A stretch of 44,788 nt of DNA from Leptolyngbyaceae cyanobacterium T60_A2020_046 (lineage in GTDB: Bacteria; Cyanobacteriota; Cyanobacteriia; Phormidesmidales; Phormidesmidaceae): assembly GCA_015272155.1 (NCBI GenBank), contig JACYME010000240.1:1-44788 (forward strand). The letters are read 5' to 3'. This document shows, piece by piece, positions 6,780 through 44,716 of this stretch; within the stretch, counting starts at the first letter, position 1; the number at the start of each line of letters is the position of its first letter. Under the pieces are notes generated by a model. It saw only the letters and a list, made by a program, of their open reading frames with translations. It made no database searches and had not been told where the DNA came from. The position numbers were made by a program, and so were the translations under genes.

Positions 6780-6790
6780 CACCTCGAAAA

Positions 6791-6821
6791 GAACCCCGGC
6801 TTCTCGAAGAAGCCGGGGTTC
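6791..6821. repeat. Hairpin repeat, copy 1 (possible clpB terminator)
   Basis: Perfect inverted repeat with arms GAACCCCGGCTTCT and AGAAGCCGGGGTTC (14 bp) around a 3-base loop. No T-run follows, so a Rho-independent terminator role is uncertain. A near-identical hairpin lies at 7504-7536 on the other side of the transposase remnant. That pairing is how REP-type hairpins are arranged around their RAYT transposases. Confidence 0.8.
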
Positions 6822-6882
6822 TGAGCATGTGACACCTGCTAAGGGCAACCTGAAAACAGGATGCATCCCTCAGAAACCCACC

Positions 6883-7499: not shown

Positions 7500-7503
7500 A
7501 AGA

Positions 7504-7536
7504 AGAACCCCGGCTTTTTCAAACAGCCGGGGTTCT
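7504..7536. repeat. Hairpin repeat, copy 2
   Basis: Arms AGAACCCCGGCT (7504-7515) and AGCCGGGGTTCT (7525-7536) form a perfect 12-bp stem with a 9-base loop. The stem shares the core GAACCCCGGCT with the hairpin at 6791-6821. The two copies bracket the transposase remnant at nearly equal distance. No T-run follows. Confidence 0.85.
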
Positions 7537-7963
7537 GGGCAAATCTTGGCTAAGTGGCAAAATTGAGAAAACCCCGGCGAAGTCATTATCACGAAAGCTA
7601 GCAGTACCAAGATATAAGATGAACGGCGATCGCCCCTAGCTCCCCAAGCAACCCATGACTGTCAACAAGCACCACGCCTCATTTACCTCCGAGGAATATT
7701 TGGAGATTGAGCGTATCAGTCCCATCAAGCACGAATATGTGCAGGGGCAAATTGTGGCAATGGCGGGTGCCAGTAAAGCTCACGTCATCATCACGGGGAA
7801 TCTCTCGGCGCTGCTCATCAACCATCTCAGAGGTTCGGGGTGCTTGGCCTACGCTGCCGATATGAAGGTGTGTTTGCCGCAGTTGAATCTTTTTTACTAC
7901 GCTGACCTGGCCGTGACGTACGATGAACGCGACCGCCGCTCTGACGAAGCATTTATATCCAAA

Positions 7964-8274: not shown

Positions 8275-8346
8275 CTGGGGTGCTAGGATTCGAACCTAGG
8301 AATGGCGGGACCAAAACCCGCTGCCTTACCGCTTGGCGACACCCCA
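8275..8346 (-). tRNA. tRNA-Gln (anticodon UUG)
   Basis: Read on the minus strand this is a 72-base cloverleaf. The acceptor pair is TGGGGTG with CACCCCA, and the discriminator is G. The D-arm has AAGCGGTAAGG. The anticodon arm GCGGG-TTTTGGT-CCCGC has anticodon TTG. The T-arm CCTAG-GTTCGAATC-CTAG contains TTCGAAT. The weak U1-A72 pair is the known identity mark of glutamine tRNAs. CCA is not encoded. It lies between the Uma2 remnant and the hydrolase gene. Confidence 0.96.
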
Positions 8347-19771: not shown

Positions 19772-19943
19772 ACGTCAGTTCGGGTTGAGCCATTGGCCCG
19801 GATTTTCTCCTCCTAGGGAGGGGTGTCCGCAGGACAGGGTGGGAAACCCCAGCGGTAAACCGACCCCTGGCCCCTCCGAGGAGGGTAAAATCTCTGGCCA
19901 CGAATCGGTCTTATGCAATTGAGGACTTAACCCGAACTCAGGT
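19772..19943 (-). mobile_element. Non-coding MITE-like element, copy A
   Basis: A 172-bp element, read on the minus strand as ACCTGAGTTCGGGTTAAG to AACCCGAACTGACGT, with imperfect inverted ends (AGTTCGGGTTRAG). It is flanked by the direct repeat TACTTCA (19765-19771 and 19944-19950), a 7-bp target duplication. A homologous copy in opposite orientation lies at 42899-43071, roughly three quarters identical by eye. The inside has GC-rich hairpins such as CCTCCTCGGAGG and no reading frame. It inserted within the stop codon of the adjoining response regulator gene. Confidence 0.85.
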
Positions 19944-20476
19944 TACTTCAGCTTTTGCTTGATAAACGCCAGAATCTTGGCTGTCTGCGCCTTCAGCGCC
20001 GCAACCTCAGCTTCTAGCTTGGCAACCTTCGCCTTCAGTGCCGCAACCTCAGCCGCATCCCCCGCAGAACTGGCGCTTGCCGCCGCCGCAGGTCGAGGCT
20101 TCCGGGCCTTTGCCATTGCCCCTTTAATCGCCTCAATCAGTTCCTTTTGTTCAAAGGGCTTTTGAATGAACTCGAAAAACTCAAAGGGCTCAGAAATCTT
20201 TTCCGTCACCTCTTCGCGGCGACCCGACATGAGCACGAGGGGAATGTGCTGCAAGTCAGGCTGAGCCTGAATTTCTTGAAAGACTTCCCAGCCACTCATG
20301 CGCGGTAATAAAAAGTCCAGCATGATCAGGTTGGGGCGCTGCTCGCGAATGGCATTGAGCCCTTCGACCCCATCCTTTGCCTCTAAAACTTCAAAGTTGC
20401 CCTGGGGTAGCATGTCCCGCACGCGCATCCGAATCACGCGGCTGTCATCAATAACCAGGATTTTGTGCGTGGCCAC
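19943..20476 (-). CDS. Single-receiver response regulator with C-terminal coiled coil
   Basis: A 177-residue protein. The CheY-like receiver (1-125) has acidic pair Asp10-Asp11, phosphoacceptor Asp54 in IMLDFLLPRMSG, the Ser of LMSGRREE, and the conserved Lys in QKPFEQ. After it come an Ala/Pro-rich linker and a regular heptad helix built of AALKAKVAKLEAEVAALKAQ (about 142-170), likely for oligomerisation. There is no DNA-binding or enzymatic output domain, so it should act by protein contact. No sensor kinase is nearby. The last base of its TAA stop belongs to the MITE-like element. Before insertion the codon would have been TAG. Confidence 0.92.
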   Translation of the reverse strand: MATHKILVIDDSRVIRMRVRDMLPQGNFEVLEAKDGVEGLNAIREQRPNLIMLDFLLPRMSGWEVFQEIQAQPDLQHIPLVLMSGRREEVTEKISEPFEFFEFIQKPFEQKELIEAIKGAMAKARKPRPAAAASASSAGDAAEVAALKAKVAKLEAEVAALKAQTAKILAFIKQKLK

Positions 20477-29418: not shown

Positions 29419-29512
29419 GACCTGGACCCATGCGGTCGCAACGCCCAAACCATGTCAGGACCGGAAGGTAGCAGCATTACGGGATGCTTGTGACAGGCGT
29501 GGTCTCCGGGTC
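29419..29512 (+). ncRNA. ffs: Signal recognition particle 4.5S RNA
   Basis: A roughly 94-nt hairpin RNA. The terminal stem pairs GACCTGGACCCATGC at the 5' end with GCGTGGTCTCCGGGTC at the 3' end. The apical domain IV has the invariant sequence CAGGACCGGAAGGTAGCAGC with the GGAA tetraloop and the Ffh-binding asymmetric loop (AGCAGCATTACGGGA). A run of six T follows at 29515-29520 and would terminate it. With Ffh it directs membrane proteins to the translocon. The exact ends are estimated from pairing. Confidence 0.95.
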
Positions 29513-29520
29513 TCTTTTTT
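29513..29520 (+). terminator. T-run terminating the SRP RNA
   Basis: TCTTTTTT directly after the GC-rich closing stem of the RNA, so the RNA's own helix acts as the terminator hairpin. Confidence 0.75.
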
Positions 29521-34212: not shown

Positions 34213-36150
34213 TTACACCCGCGTTTCTTCGCCGACCCAGGGCAGCTTCACTAAGTCCTCAAAGGTGGTTTGACGTTCTTTTTCGAGTTCGGCGATGCGG
34301 CGTTTTTCCGCACAGATCTGATGTTGATAATAGGTGTGTTGTTCGGGGCTGGCGGTGCAGTCGCTCTCGCTCCAGAGCTGAAGAAAATGGCGATAGCGCT
34401 TTTCACAGAGCGCTTTTTCGATGCAGGCGGCGGCGGCGCGAATGATCAGCGGGCCGCGCAGGACGTCGCGCTGACTCTTTTCATCCAAATAAAAGAGGTG
34501 CTGGGTTTGGGCAAGGGTGAGGGATTCGGCGGCGCGATCGCGCAACCACTCCACCAGCGGCGGCAAGTTGACCTCCGTTTGGGCCGCCTTTTCCCAGGTT
34601 TGCAGATCGCGCCATAGCGCCCGATGGTGGGAATAGCTGAACTGGAGGTCGCGGTTTTCGAGCATTTCGACGATGGCCGCGCGCTGCTCAGCGGCATGGA
34701 TGTAGAGCCGCAGCAGCATCGCCTCCGCCTCTTCCAGGTTGCTGGTCTGGGTAAAGGTGAGGGTGGGGCGAGTGGGGGCGGTGTCTGGCGATCGCCGTCG
34801 CCGCCGCACCTGCACCATCAAATTTTCGATCAGCAACGGCATCAGCCGTGCATCGCCGTGGCTAAAGAGTTCTGCACAGTGGCGCACATAGTGGGTGCGG
34901 GTGTCGGCGTTGGCAATTTCGCTAAGCAACTGCACGATCGCCTGCGATGCCGCCTGAAACTGATCCGCCTGGCGTAGGTCGCGCCCGGCCACCGTTTGCT
35001 GAATCTGCCAGTCGAGCCAGAGGGGGGCGGCATCCAGCAGGGCAACGTATTCCTCCACGGGATGGGTTTTGAGGAATTCGTCCGGGTCTTTGCCAGCGGG
35101 AATGTTGAGGACGCGCAACTGTACATCGCCGCGATAGGCCATCGCCTCCGCCTCGCCGATCGCGCGCTTCGCCGCCTTTACCCCCGCCGCATCGGCATCA
35201 AAGTTGAGAATCACCTGCTTCGATTCGGTGTAGCGCAGCAGTTGCCGCACCTGGGCAGCGTTGAGGGCCGTGCCCAGGGCGGCGACCGAGTTCGTCACCC
35301 CCGCTGCGTGCAGGGCAATCACGTCGAAGTAGCCTTCGACCACCACAGCACGATCGGCCTTCGCGATCGCCGCCCGGGCCTTATCTAGCCCAAAGAGGGT
35401 CTGGCCTTTGTCAAACAGTTCGGTGTCGGGGGAGTTGAGGTATTTGGGTTTGTCCGCATCGCTCAGCGATCGCCCGCCAAAGGCAATCACCCGTCCTCGC
35501 CCGTCGTGGATAGGAATCATCAGCCGATTGCGAAAGCGATCGTAATGGCCGCTGCCCCCATTGCGTGGCACAATCAGCCCCGCCTGCTCCACCAGCGCCA
35601 CGGGATAGCGCTTTTGCTCCACCAAATAGCCATAGAGGGTTTGCCAGCCCCCCGGCGCATAGCCCAGTTGAAACTGCTGGATGGTAGACTCCACCAGCCC
35701 CCGCTGCTGGGTGAGGTATTGCAGCGCCGCCGCGCCATCCGTCTGTCGCAGGGCGTGCTCGTAGAACTTGGTGGTGACGGCTAAAATTTCGTAGAGCTGT
35801 TCCCGCAGGGTGAGCTGGCGCTGAAGCTCCTGGCGCTGGTTGGGCTCTAGGGTGAGCACGGGCACCTGGTAGCGTTTCGCCAGATCTAGCACCACGTCTG
35901 AGAACGATCGCTTGCCCAGCTCCATCAAAAACTTGAAGGCGTTGCCCCCCGCCCCACAGGAAAAACAGTAATAGAACTGCTTGCCCGGGCTGACGCTAAA
36001 GCTCGGCGATTTGTCATCGTGGAAGGGGCACAGCCCGACAAAATCCTTGCCCTGCTTTTTCAGCACCACATGCTCAGACACAATATCCACAATGTCGGCG
36101 CGATCGCGCACGGCACTGATCGTATCGGGGTGTAAGCGGGGCGTATCCAT
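34213..36150 (-). CDS. dnaG: DNA primase
   Basis: Makes RNA primers for replication. It is 645 residues. The CHC2 zinc-binding domain has Cys41, His44, Cys62 and Cys65 (LCPFHDDKSPSFSV, YYCFSCGAGGN). The catalytic core has PIHDGRGRVIAFGGRSLSD, the Toprim acidic motifs VVVEGYFDVIALH and ILNFDADAAG, and KDPDEFL. The C-terminal 200 residues are helical, consistent with the DnaB-binding region, with LYIHAAEQRAAIVEMLENRD inside. ATG 36150 gives the standard family start. It reads toward chlN, convergent across the terminator. Confidence 0.96.
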   Translation of the reverse strand: MDTPRLHPDTISAVRDRADIVDIVSEHVVLKKQGKDFVGLCPFHDDKSPSFSVSPGKQFYYCFSCGAGGNAFKFLMELGKRSFSDVVLDLAKRYQVPVLTLEPNQRQELQRQLTLREQLYEILAVTTKFYEHALRQTDGAAALQYLTQQRGLVESTIQQFQLGYAPGGWQTLYGYLVEQKRYPVALVEQAGLIVPRNGGSGHYDRFRNRLMIPIHDGRGRVIAFGGRSLSDADKPKYLNSPDTELFDKGQTLFGLDKARAAIAKADRAVVVEGYFDVIALHAAGVTNSVAALGTALNAAQVRQLLRYTESKQVILNFDADAAGVKAAKRAIGEAEAMAYRGDVQLRVLNIPAGKDPDEFLKTHPVEEYVALLDAAPLWLDWQIQQTVAGRDLRQADQFQAASQAIVQLLSEIANADTRTHYVRHCAELFSHGDARLMPLLIENLMVQVRRRRRSPDTAPTRPTLTFTQTSNLEEAEAMLLRLYIHAAEQRAAIVEMLENRDLQFSYSHHRALWRDLQTWEKAAQTEVNLPPLVEWLRDRAAESLTLAQTQHLFYLDEKSQRDVLRGPLIIRAAAACIEKALCEKRYRHFLQLWSESDCTASPEQHTYYQHQICAEKRRIAELEKERQTTFEDLVKLPWVGEETRV

Positions 36151-36376
36151 CCACCAAAACCTCAGAAATCTCGTCTATCCCAGGCCTTCGCTCGGCCATG
36201 AGCCCTGGCACCCTGGCCGCCCCTCATCAGCGTGGGGAAACGGCAGCAGGCCACGAACCGCGATATCTAGCGTCCGGTGTCTGAATTTTACCTGAACTCC
36301 CCCTAGGGCGCGCCATCCATTTAAGCGAGAACTCTTCAGGGGTGAGCAGGGCCGTGCCCTAGGGCTGATTCCTTAG

Positions 36377-36589
36377 TGGGAGAAATGGGAGAAAACCCTT
36401 GAGACTCCCATTCCTGGTTGCCTGACACATTTCTGGAAACCCTTGATTTTTCGTTGAGAGTCTATACGCAAAAGGACGCTAACCCAAGGCTTTCAGCCCT
36501 AGAGTTCGAGATTCCAGCTCCAGATGTGAAACAACTGAATATCAATGCTTTGAGGCGCTTGTGTCAGGCAGTCAGCTCCCATTCTCCCA
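36377..36589. repeat. Older hairpin split by the 162-bp element
   Basis: The left arm TGGGAGAAATGGGAG (36377-36391) and right arm CTCCCATTCTCCCA (36576-36589) are complementary apart from one extra A. Removing the inserted element and one target duplication brings them to a loop of 13 bases, a strong hairpin of REP or terminator type. Confidence 0.6.
36414..36575. mobile_element. 162-bp MITE-like element
   Basis: The left end CTGGTTGCCTGACACA and the inverted right end CTGACTGCCTGACACA agree at 14 of 16 positions. Direct repeats of CTCCCATTC flank it exactly (36405-36413 and 36576-36584), a 9-bp target duplication. The interior has no domain-bearing frame. It lies between the dnaG start and the ABC-F stop. 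It is unrelated in sequence to the pair at 19772 and 42899. Confidence 0.72.
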
Positions 36590-36675
36590 TTGTCACATCG
36601 CTCCTGTTTTGGCGGTCAACGAGATAACGGGACTCCAGGCATTTTCCCCTTCTTAGAGAATCGACCTTCGGGTAT

Positions 36676-36703
36676 GAGGGTGGGAGAGTAAGAGGGGGTG
36701 AGG
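36676..36703 (+). repeat. 28-nt G-rich repeat, copy 2
   Basis: Begins GAGGGTGGGAGAGTAAG; 25 of 28 positions match the minus strand at 24805-24832. In both places it lies close to the 3' end of a minus-strand gene. Confidence 0.65.
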
Positions 36704-36777
36704 GTATGAGTGTGTGAGGGACTGGATTCACCCGGTCACTCCTCCGTCCAGTCATCCCTCCACCCGCACCCATTCCC

Positions 36778-38706
36778 CTACTCCGCCCGTTCCGCTAGCT
36801 CCAGCCAGCGCTCTGTCGCCGTATCGATCGCGCTAGTCAGCTCTGCTAACCGTTCTGAAAGCTGCTGCACTTCGCTATAGCCGCTGGGGGGATTGCCGTA
36901 GAGCGTGGTTTCGATCGCGGCCTTCTCAGCCTCCAGTTCTGGGATTTGGGCTTCGAGCTGTTCGTATTCGCGCTTTTCCTTGTAGGACAGTTTCTTGGCC
37001 TTAGGGGCCGAGATCGCGGTCTGTGGTGACGCCGCTGTCGCCGTGGGGGAGGCGCTGGCGGGTTTTTCGGCCTTGGGTTGGGCGCGATCGACCTCGTCCG
37101 CCGCCTGCCGATAGTCCAGATAGACGGAATAGTTGCCGGGATATTGGCGAATGTGGCCGTCGCCCTCAAAGGCAAAAACCGTTTCGACGGTGCGATCGAG
37201 GAAATAGCGATCGTGGGACACGACAATCACACAGCCGTTAAAATCCTCCAAATACTCTTCTAAAACCGCCAGGGTTTGCACGTCTAGATCATTGGTCGGC
37301 TCGTCCAAAATCAACACATTGGGAGCCTGCATCAACACTTGGAGCAGGAATAAGCGCCGCCGTTCACCGCCCGATAATTTGTGGATCGGCGCATATTGTT
37401 GATTGGGCGGAAACAAAAATCGCTCCAGCATTTGCGAGGCGGTGATGACGCTGCCGTCCACGGTTTTGACCAGTTCCGCCGTTTCTTTGAGGTATTCAAT
37501 GACGCGCTGATTAGGATTTTTGATCACATCTTCAGAGTGCTGATCAAAGTAGCCAAAGTGAATGGTGTCGCCAATTTCAACGGTGCCTGCGTCGGGCTGA
37601 ATGCGGCCCGTAATCAGGTTCATCAGCGTGGATTTGCCCACCCCGTTGGGGCCAATAATGCCGATGCGATCGCGGGGATTAAAAATATAGGTAAAGTCGC
37701 GAATCAAGATGCGATCGCCGTAGCCCTTCGTCACCCCCGCCAACTCGATCACCTTTTTGCCAATACGGCGACCAGCGGTGGAAATTTCGACCTTGCCGAC
37801 GGCCTCCTTAAACTCGCGATTCTGCATCTCATCAATGCGTTGAATGCGCGCCTTTTGCTTGGTGCTGCGGGCCTTGGGGCCACGCTTGAGCCATTCCAAC
37901 TCGCGGCGCAGCACCCCGGCGTGTTTCCTTTGGGTGCTGGCGTCCGAGGCTTCAGCGTCGGCTTTTTTCTCCAGGTAATAGCTGTAGTTGCCCCCGTAGC
38001 CCAGCAAATCCCCGCGATCGACTTCCAAAATTCGATTCGTGACCTGATCCAAAAAATAGCGATCGTGGGTAATCAGCAGCAGCGCGCCCCGAAAGCCGTT
38101 GAGATAGCTTTGCAGCCATTCCACAGACTCGGCATCCAGGTGGTTGGTGGGCTCGTCCATCAGTAGCGCGTCCGGATCGGCCAGCAGCGCCGCCGCGATC
38201 GCCACCCGTTTGCGATAGCCCCCTGACAGATCTCCCACCCGCGCGTCAAAGTCCTCGATGCCCAGCTTGCTAAGCACCACCTTGGCGCTGGTCTCCAAAT
38301 CCCAGGCTCCGGCGGCCTCGATCTGCTCCGTCAGCCGCGACAGCCGCGACAGCAGCGCATCCATGTCGCCCTGCCCCCGCGCCAGGTGATGGGAAACGGC
38401 CTCGTATTCGCGAATCAGGGCCATTTGCTCGCCCGCATCGGCAAACACCTGTTCGAGGACGGTGCGATCGCCCTCAAACTCGGGCTGTTGGGGCAGATAC
38501 ACGATGTTTGCCCCGGCATTGCGCCAGATTTCGCCGCCGTCAATGGGTTCGAGACCCGCAATCATCTTCAACAGGGTCGATTTCCCAGAACCGTTGGTGC
38601 CAATCAGCCCCACCTTGTCGCCTTCTTCCAGGCTGAAGCTGGCATCGCGCAGGATTTCCTTGATGCCAAAGTCTTTCTTGACGGATTTCAGCGTCAGCAG
38701 CGTCAT
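36778..38706 (-). CDS. ABC-F family ATPase (Uup/EttA-like)
   Basis: A 642-residue soluble protein with two ABC domains and no membrane part, as in ABC-F ribosome-associated factors. Domain 1 has Walker A GTNGSGKS (36-43), signature LSGGYRKR and Walker B ALLMDEPTNHLD. The linker (about 245-320) has the charged P-site-tRNA-interaction motif region LKRGPKARSTKQKARIQR. Domain 2 has Walker A GPNGVGKS (352-359), LSGGERRR and VLILDEPTNDLD. An Ala/Pro linker leads to a C-terminal coiled coil (KLSYKEKREYEQLEAQIPEL), the Uup-type DNA/ribosome-binding tail. Such proteins relieve translational stalling. The exact subtype is inferred from the tail. Confidence 0.94.
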   Translation of the reverse strand: MTLLTLKSVKKDFGIKEILRDASFSLEEGDKVGLIGTNGSGKSTLLKMIAGLEPIDGGEIWRNAGANIVYLPQQPEFEGDRTVLEQVFADAGEQMALIREYEAVSHHLARGQGDMDALLSRLSRLTEQIEAAGAWDLETSAKVVLSKLGIEDFDARVGDLSGGYRKRVAIAAALLADPDALLMDEPTNHLDAESVEWLQSYLNGFRGALLLITHDRYFLDQVTNRILEVDRGDLLGYGGNYSYYLEKKADAEASDASTQRKHAGVLRRELEWLKRGPKARSTKQKARIQRIDEMQNREFKEAVGKVEISTAGRRIGKKVIELAGVTKGYGDRILIRDFTYIFNPRDRIGIIGPNGVGKSTLMNLITGRIQPDAGTVEIGDTIHFGYFDQHSEDVIKNPNQRVIEYLKETAELVKTVDGSVITASQMLERFLFPPNQQYAPIHKLSGGERRRLFLLQVLMQAPNVLILDEPTNDLDVQTLAVLEEYLEDFNGCVIVVSHDRYFLDRTVETVFAFEGDGHIRQYPGNYSVYLDYRQAADEVDRAQPKAEKPASASPTATAASPQTAISAPKAKKLSYKEKREYEQLEAQIPELEAEKAAIETTLYGNPPSGYSEVQQLSERLAELTSAIDTATERWLELAERAE

Positions 38707-40446: not shown

Positions 40447-40888
40447 TTCGCTCCGCTTTGTTGTGTCGGTGAACAACGCGGCTCGGGGTCGAAGCAGGTG
40501 AATTGCGAAAAACTTGCGCGATCGCCCCTACCCTTCCACAACGAGCCAGAATAGTAGGAGCCATCAGCCCGCTTGGCTTGGGTCAGGTCAGTGCTGACGT
40601 GCCTAGGGCGGTTGTGGCGAGCTCCATCGCCCTCCTTCCCACCCTACCGCAAAATAATGTTGATTCCCAAGCCCCAACCCCACGATCGCAGGGTCGAATC
40701 CCTGGAAATCAGGCCCCTCTTGTTTCACCGCGCCACGTCACAGCACCGCGCAAAGTCTGGAAGAACGCGAATTTGCATCAGGATGTGATGGCCTAAACGG
40801 CAGCACTATCTTGCACCAAGGCACCCTGCTATCGTGACGAACAAGCCACTATATTAAAGATGGCTTTCTGTTGCAAGCATCACACGCT
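40447..40888. other. Intergenic region between antiporter and pspA-like gene
   Basis: About 440 bases shared by two divergent genes. CACTATATTAAAG near 40850 could be a -10 region for the pspA-like gene. CGCAGGGTCGAATCCCTG near 40685 looks like a tRNA T-arm, but no cloverleaf surrounds it. Confidence 0.35.
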
Positions 40889-42587: not shown

Positions 42588-42898
42588 TTCTCATCGTCAA
42601 GAACGAGCATCTAGGATGATGTGAAACATCCGCCCAGTGTTGCGTAAAACGTTAGGGGCTGTACCCGTAAGCTAGGTTAAGATACAGGCTTTCACGGTGC
42701 AGCCCTGAATAGTCTTTGGTAAAAGTCTCCCGTCCTCAACCGCACCGACTTGATCTCAGGCTTGACCCACTTTCACTGATGGGAAGCTTTTCAATGCTAA
42801 GTGTGGTTAATTAAGCGGATTTGATATAGGGGGTAAGAGATGAGTTCGTTAAAACGGACTTCTGCGATGAGCCAAGACAATTGATGGCCTAGCGGATA
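42588..42898. other. Gene-free region before MITE-like copy B
   Basis: I see no gene, tRNA or clear terminator in these bases. The last nine, TAGCGGATA (42890-42898), are the left target duplication of the following element. Confidence 0.4.
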
Positions 42899-43071
42899 AC
42901 CTAAGTTCGGGATAAGTCGTCCATTATGCAAGTCCGATCCGTTGCCAGAGGATTTCTCCTCCTCGGAGGGGTCGGGGGTGGGTTTGTCGCTGGGTTTCAC
43001 CCATCCCGTCCTGCGGACGCCCCTCCCCACGAGGGGAAAAGACTGGCCAGTGGCTTAACCCGAATCGACGT
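42899..43071 (+). mobile_element. Non-coding MITE-like element, copy B
   Basis: A 173-bp element starting ACCTAAGTTCGGGATAAG and ending AACCCGAATCGACGT. The inverted ends share TTCGGGNTAAG. It is flanked exactly by TAGCGGATA (42890-42898 and 43072-43080), a 9-bp target duplication. It is homologous over its whole length to the reverse complement of 19772-19943, including internal blocks CTCCTCGGAGGGG and GTCCTGCGGAC. It has no reading frame, so movement would need a transposase supplied elsewhere. Confidence 0.87.
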
Positions 43072-43333: not shown

Positions 43334-44716
43334 CTAGTCCAGTTCAGGCATCGAGAGCACGGGTTCGGACTCGCGATCGATTCCCTTCTCAAAACCAGCC
43401 TCAGCAGCACGAGCACGGCCCGCATGCCACAGGTGACCAACCAAGAAGAAGAACCCAAGCACAAAGTGAGACGTTGCCAACCACTGTCGGGGGTTAACAA
43501 AGTTCACCGAGTTGATCTCCGTGATGATGCCACCCACAGAGTTGATGGAAGCGTTGGGGGCGTGAGTCATGTACTCAGCCGCACGCCGAACTTGCCAATC
43601 TTGGATATCATTCTTCAGCTTATCGAGATCCAAGCCATTGGGGCCGCGCAGAGGCTCCAACCAAGGGCCTTGGAAGTCCCAAAAACGCATAGTTTCACCG
43701 CCGAAGATGATTTCACCCGTCGGGGAGCGCATCAGGTACTTACCGAGACCCGTAGGGCCTTGTGCAGCACCGATATTGGCACCCAAGCGAAGGTCACGAA
43801 CCAAGAAAGTCATGGCCTGAGCCTGAGACGCCTCAGCATTCGTGGGGCCGTAGAACTCAGAGGGATAAGCGGTGTTGTTGAACCAGACCATACAGGAGGC
43901 CACAAACCCCATGAGGGAAAGGGCACCCAAACTGTAGGACAGGTAAGCCTCACCCGACCAGATCAGAGCGCGACGTGCCCATGCGAAGGGCTTAGTCAAA
44001 ATGTGCCAGATGCCGCCGCCGATGCAGATCAAGCCAACCCAGATGTGGCCACCAATGATGTCTTCCATGTTGTTGACACCAATGATCCAGCCCTCACCCC
44101 CGAAGGGAGAGCCGACCAGATAGCCAAAGATCTTGACCGGGCTCAGCGTGGGGTTAGTAATGACACGAACATCGCCACCACCAGGAGCCCAGGTGTCATA
44201 AACACCACCCAGGAAGCAAGCCTTAATCACCAGCAAGAACGCACCCAAGCCTAAGAGGATGAGGTGAATGCCAATGATGGTAGTCATCTTGTTCTTGTCT
44301 TTCCAGTCGTAGCCGAAGAATGCGGAGTATTCTTCCAACGTCTCGGGACCACGAACTGCGTGGTAAACACCACCCAAGCCCAGAACAGCAGAGGAAACAA
44401 GGTGAAGTACACCTACCACAAAGTAGGGGAAGGTGTCGATGATTTCACCACCGGGGCCAACGCCCCACCCCAATGTGGCTAGGTGGGGCAGAAGAATGAA
44501 GCCCTGCTCATACAGAGGCTTTTCAGGAACAAAGTGCGCAACCTCGAACAAGGTCATCGCACCAGCCCAGAATACGATGAGGCCAGCGTGGGCGACGTGT
44601 GCGCCCAGCAGCTTACCGGAAAGGTTGATCAAGCGTGCGTTACCAGACCACCAGGCAAAGCCGGTAGATTCTTGGTCGCGCCCACCGATGTAGGAATTAC
44701 TAGAGAGCGTTACCAC
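43334..44716 (-). CDS. psbC: Photosystem II CP43 chlorophyll-binding protein
   Basis: Core antenna protein of photosystem II in the thylakoid, binding chlorophyll a and helping ligate the manganese cluster. It is 460 residues from GTG 44716 (Met-Val-Thr-Leu-Ser-Ser), the standard psbC start, with GAGG 9 bases upstream. Six membrane helices with paired His are present ([39 protein letters not shown]). The large lumenal loop has the cluster-ligand motif [14 protein letters not shown]. The ending is [19 protein letters not shown]. The frame is open upstream to 44743, but that part belongs to psbD. Confidence 0.99.

Follow-up and report, generated by a model that had tools for sequence, protein, structure and literature searches.

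The 162-bp element at positions 36414-36575 (+ strand) of the window, which is the whole stretch of 44,788 nucleotides from Leptolyngbyaceae cyanobacterium T60_A2020_046 that was analyzed, is a MITE, non-autonomous and non-coding, and a DDE transposase from the IS10 subgroup of the IS4 family very probably mobilised it in trans. The discrete inverted-repeat element put forward from the sequence was confirmed at these positions: its 16-nt terminal inverted repeats (left, 36414-36429, + strand; right, 36560-36575, - strand) match at 14 of 16 positions (88% complementary), and the exact 9-bp direct repeat CTCCCATTC stands on either side (36405-36413 and 36576-36584, both on the + strand). The insertion had also been proposed to be recent, and the window copy is young enough for this duplication to survive intact. 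No open reading frame of the ORF list (at least 100 aa) lies inside the element, which thus combines short length and lack of coding capacity with inverted ends, and Rfam at gathering thresholds gave nothing there. A conserved subterminal box, GGAAACCCTTGATTTTTCGT, is located at 36435-36454 (+ strand). Some copies have a tRNA-like interior (GGTTCGAGTCC), and scanning three loci with ARAGORN returned no tRNA.

The element is repeated in its own genome, a draft assembly of 4.2 Mb in 250 contigs. The search for other copies, suggested as a check in the original prediction, found 12 full-length ones together with two 58-bp end fragments; the full copies share 89–100% identity with the window copy and 93.8–100% with one another (mean 96.5%, gap columns left out). 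Given 12 full-length repeats in the genome, the element is not a chance pattern. These dispersed copies carry target duplications: the 9-bp duplication is exact in nine of them, matches at 8 of 9 positions in two and is absent from one (L008), and the duplicated sequences differ from copy to copy and are unrelated. The copy on contig C238 splits a gene, since the 61-aa product read across the joined flanks matches pieces on either side (residues 1–44 and 39–61), and this gene is intact in an own-genome paralogue (C220) and in 6 of 38 other genomes searched. The 9-bp duplications and the split gene therefore indicate insertion with target duplication, and together with the many copies they bear out the view of a mobile element. 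Another copy (L007:1501-1662) sits in a frame that, judged by eye, reads IS4-type transposase-like once its flanks are joined.

Matches to the 162 bp were found in 5 of 59 genomes of relatives and in 33 of 388 genomes class-wide (own genome included in both counts), the latter mostly through one end alone. Full-length relatives occur in G258 (80% identity) and G313 (77%), while the 32 matches in G058 include 22 near-full copies (91–100%) of a 161-bp sister MITE; an exact 9-bp duplication flanks 19 of the 25 complete elements read there. Sister MITEs with exact 9-bp duplications are also present in G258, G254, G245, G165 and G148, and an 83-bp form with an exact 9-bp duplication was found in G038. 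The alignment of 14 copies from 11 genomes showed that both ends and the left subterminal box are kept, and the MITE's leftmost 41 bp are conserved across genera; the family extends over several cyanobacterial families. At E 1e-5, plasmids and phages gave nothing similar to the 162 bp, a 24-base pattern was absent from viral_contigs, and the lack of matches in all three sets argues against spread by phages, plasmids or viruses. A second MITE type was seen at L074:442-580 (G000:C239:26941-27079), with ends CTGATTGACTGACAAAA and TTTTGTCAGCCAGTCAG and flanked by a 17-bp duplication, GGGCCTGTGGTGACCGC, rather than a 9-bp one.

The candidate helper was found in G058, where a 1315-bp IS beside a MITE half encodes an intact 395-aa transposase. 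Both ends (IS ends CTGACTGCCTGACA) were found in 9 of 12 IS loci examined, giving lengths of 1312–1319 bp, and five of these nine have an exact 9-bp duplication. The accessible text of De Palmenaer 2008 (PMC2266710) gives D(60-110)D(100-150)E plus YREK as the motif of the IS4 family, and 1200–1350 bp, CT ends and 9-bp repeats as features of the IS10 subgroup. The candidate helper agrees with this description in length, CT ends and 9-bp repeats, and its transposase, which matches Pfam DDE_Tnp_1, has DDE spacers of 62 and 101 and the full YREK motif (YALRFRVEELFLDSK, that is Y(2)R(3)E(6)K), whereas the window element lacks any such gene. Thus the helper is likely an IS4-family element of about 1.3 kb in the IS10 subgroup, an assignment made by description from size, ends, repeats and motifs, with the NCBIfam IS4_2 model (NF033591) scoring 115.9 bits, below its cut-off of 152, and a phmmer search of the transposase against PDB giving no match at E<=1.

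The ends of the MITE resemble the opposite ends of this IS. The left repeat (ATCT-type) corresponds to the IS right end (IS right ends CTGACTGCCTGACACATCT) and the right repeat (AAGTG-type) to the IS left end, the clearest match being that of the G213 IS left end with the MITE right end (84% over 44 bp). Ends in common with the MITE were found for the IS in G213, G254, G308, G234 and G174, and the own-genome copy on C157 was also counted, as a decayed relative; it is 85% identical in part, has lost its 3' end and contains one TGA and two TAG codons and a frame break. The own genome yielded no intact transposase of the helper type, and the helper is therefore either missing from the 250-contig draft or gone. 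A transposase match of at least 52% identity was present in 9 of the 33 genomes with MITE-end matches (own included) vs 19 of the 355 others (Fisher p=1.7e-4). This tally is rough, since the end matches include some IS ends and lone boxes and the genomes are related to one another. The helper transposase also occurs on plasmids (86 records).

From these sequences we infer that an IS10-type IS would supply the enzyme. Its transposase would bind the CTGRYTGCCTGACACA ends of the MITE, cut out or copy the MITE and insert it after cleaving W-S-N7-S-W sites with a 9-bp stagger, and gap repair would leave the 9-bp duplication. It is unlikely that another transposase, IS4-like or from an unrelated IS, makes these 9-bp duplications and moves the MITE. 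The genus-spanning left 41 bp, which the sampled IS ends match only over the first ~19 bp, would be in line with such a source, as would a second IS4-like gene in the own genome (C209; 33% identical, with stops), but the two ends agree with an IS10-like element, as do the left/right asymmetry between them and the length of the duplication.

The left subterminal 20-mer is absent from the sampled IS ends compared, so simple deletion of one of these ISs did not give rise to the MITE. Sister MITEs of different genera retain most of the box, TCTCTGGAAACCCYTGATTTYTCGT, and five other genomes have it again as a 20-mer (<=2 mismatches), away from the ends of this MITE. On this basis we consider, as a doubtful further reading, that the MITE lineage may be a separate, long-lived cyanobacterial parasite and not a recent IS deletion, that the box may bind a host or transposase factor and that MITE ends may pair with an IS end. 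If so, the putative factor site in the left box might let the MITE outcompete its parent's own ends, and pairing of a MITE end with an IS end may move IS-MITE fusions. The 20-mer without MITE ends was seen at L011 and L214-L218 (G019, G118, G083, G241 and G363; GGAAACCCTTGATTTTTCGT with <=2 mismatches), and in G019, G241 and G363 it comes after a TGAGACARCC motif, a context that suggests another element family sharing the box.

A fusion of this kind was found in G058, in which the left 104 bp of the MITE are fused to the IS, and the 9-bp left flank of the fused unit, CTTCTGGTC, is identical to the one on the right of another IS copy. The fusion may have arisen when a MITE end moved together with an IS end and recombination then took place. 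At four loci of G058 (L020, L027, L098 and L101), left MITE halves of 104–105 bp are joined, all at one internal position, to an IS or to a second MITE.

The element lies between dnaG (34213-36150, - strand; TIGR01391, 450 bits), its downstream neighbour, and an ABC-F family gene (36778-38706, - strand), its upstream neighbour. Removal of the element and one repeat was predicted to restore a stem, and it does: TGGGAGAAATGGGAG (36377-36391, + strand) pairs with CTCCCATTCTCCCA (36576-36589, + strand), the latter including the right target duplication, over 14 pairs with one bulged A and a loop of 13, and the left duplication copy can replace the first 9 bases of the right arm. The bulge-tolerant score of this stem is 12, and the hairpin is more than chance since only 2 of 400 random positions reach at least 11. 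It is single-copy in the own genome and has no T-run. A search for the empty spacer in other genomes, in 80 loci kept of 238 dnaG relatives, found no strong match to the ABC-F gene near dnaG; the ABC-F matches in those loci were weak and partial, at no more than 52.5% identity over short stretches.

Target choice was assessed at 37 sites with a clear 9-bp duplication (11 own, 19 from G058 and 7 from other genomes) against 400 random positions in the same loci, taken irrespective of intergenic location. Left out were the own-genome copy L008 (no duplication); in G058, L082, L091, L092, L097 and L104 (no duplication), L009 (8/9) and the partial copies L098-L101 and L105; and, listed under other genomes, L199, L202, L207, L010 and L074 (no clean 9-bp duplication), L208 (8/9, different ends) and L212 (contig end). 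Also outside the 37 were the IS duplications of L227, L228, L231 and L234. The short symmetric signature W-S-N7-S-W, in which a W precedes and follows a 9-bp duplication that begins and ends in S, was present at 21 of the 37 sites vs 5.2% of the controls, and the window site, ACTCCCATTCT, fits it. IS10 uses a short symmetric 9-bp target.

It had been suggested that the element seeks hairpins or terminators, which we now regard as highly improbable. A genuine bulged stem of 14 bp does stand at the window site, and one G058 site (L078) lies within a 9-bp perfect stem, but the bulge-tolerant stem score averaged 4.77 at the 37 sites vs 4.75 at the 400 controls (Mann-Whitney p=0.62) and reached at least 9 in 2 of the 37 vs 1.75% of controls. 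Gapless scoring gave the same picture, with scores of at least 9 at 1 of 11 own sites and 1 of 19 G058 sites and site means equal to those of random positions. Insertion sites are thus not enriched in inverted repeats over the controls, the window hairpin is single-copy, and a scan of the element-interrupted sequence gave no terminator-like match in 36151-36777. We infer that the window hairpin was hit by chance and is incidental as far as the 37 sites show, though a weak bias may exist at this sample size. Selection of the copies as RNA or DNA structural elements such as mRNA hairpins, rather than parasites, is equally hard to credit. The element folds better than its shuffles (z=-3.77), but its inverted ends make up most of the fold, a folding gain is expected of any MITE and two-sided compensatory change occurred in 0 of 19 predicted pairs. 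Conserved RNA structure was rejected, there being no compensatory change among the 14 sequences.

The 162-bp element is also distinct, as had been stated, from the window's other repeat. This repeat of ~101 bp occurs at 19845-19945 (+ strand) and 42897-42997 (- strand), has 31 own-genome matches of 78–100% identity, and is probably the other element family of the original prediction. Elsewhere in the window, a 39-nt hairpin-like repeat has two copies that are 85% identical (6789-6827 and 7503-7541), and Rfam identified a tRNA (8275-8346, - strand), the small SRP RNA (29419-29515), a fluoride riboswitch (40548-40640, - strand) and the IsrR antisense RNA (44119-44305).

Nezha is a cyanobacterial MITE, and by description the window MITE is like it in being short and multi-copy with inverted ends. 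The same likeness, again by description, holds for the MITEs of Anabaena sp. 90, for which the available portion of the report (PMC3542288) gives 147 elements of 77–541 bp, mostly intergenic. That portion describes type I MITEs as sharing ends with an IS and calls the Anabaena 90 elements type II, their ends having no clear resemblance to those of any IS of that genome, whereas the window MITE shares its ends with an IS. Compared with prokaryotic MITEs generally, as far as the accessible text of PMC10969869 covers them, the anatomy and the presumed trans-mobilisation are the same and nothing essential is different. In literature outside subscription journals, the string TGCCTGACACA occurred only in papers whose titles or abstract openings concern neither cyanobacteria nor transposons, and nothing joined MITE, Leptolyngbya and insertion sequence.

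Hairpin targeting, the more surprising story, fails, and what was a suspected hairpin-seeker becomes a MITE family with clear bounds, for which a candidate helper can be named and a target signature measured. It could serve for studying how MITEs persist in a genome with a decayed helper.
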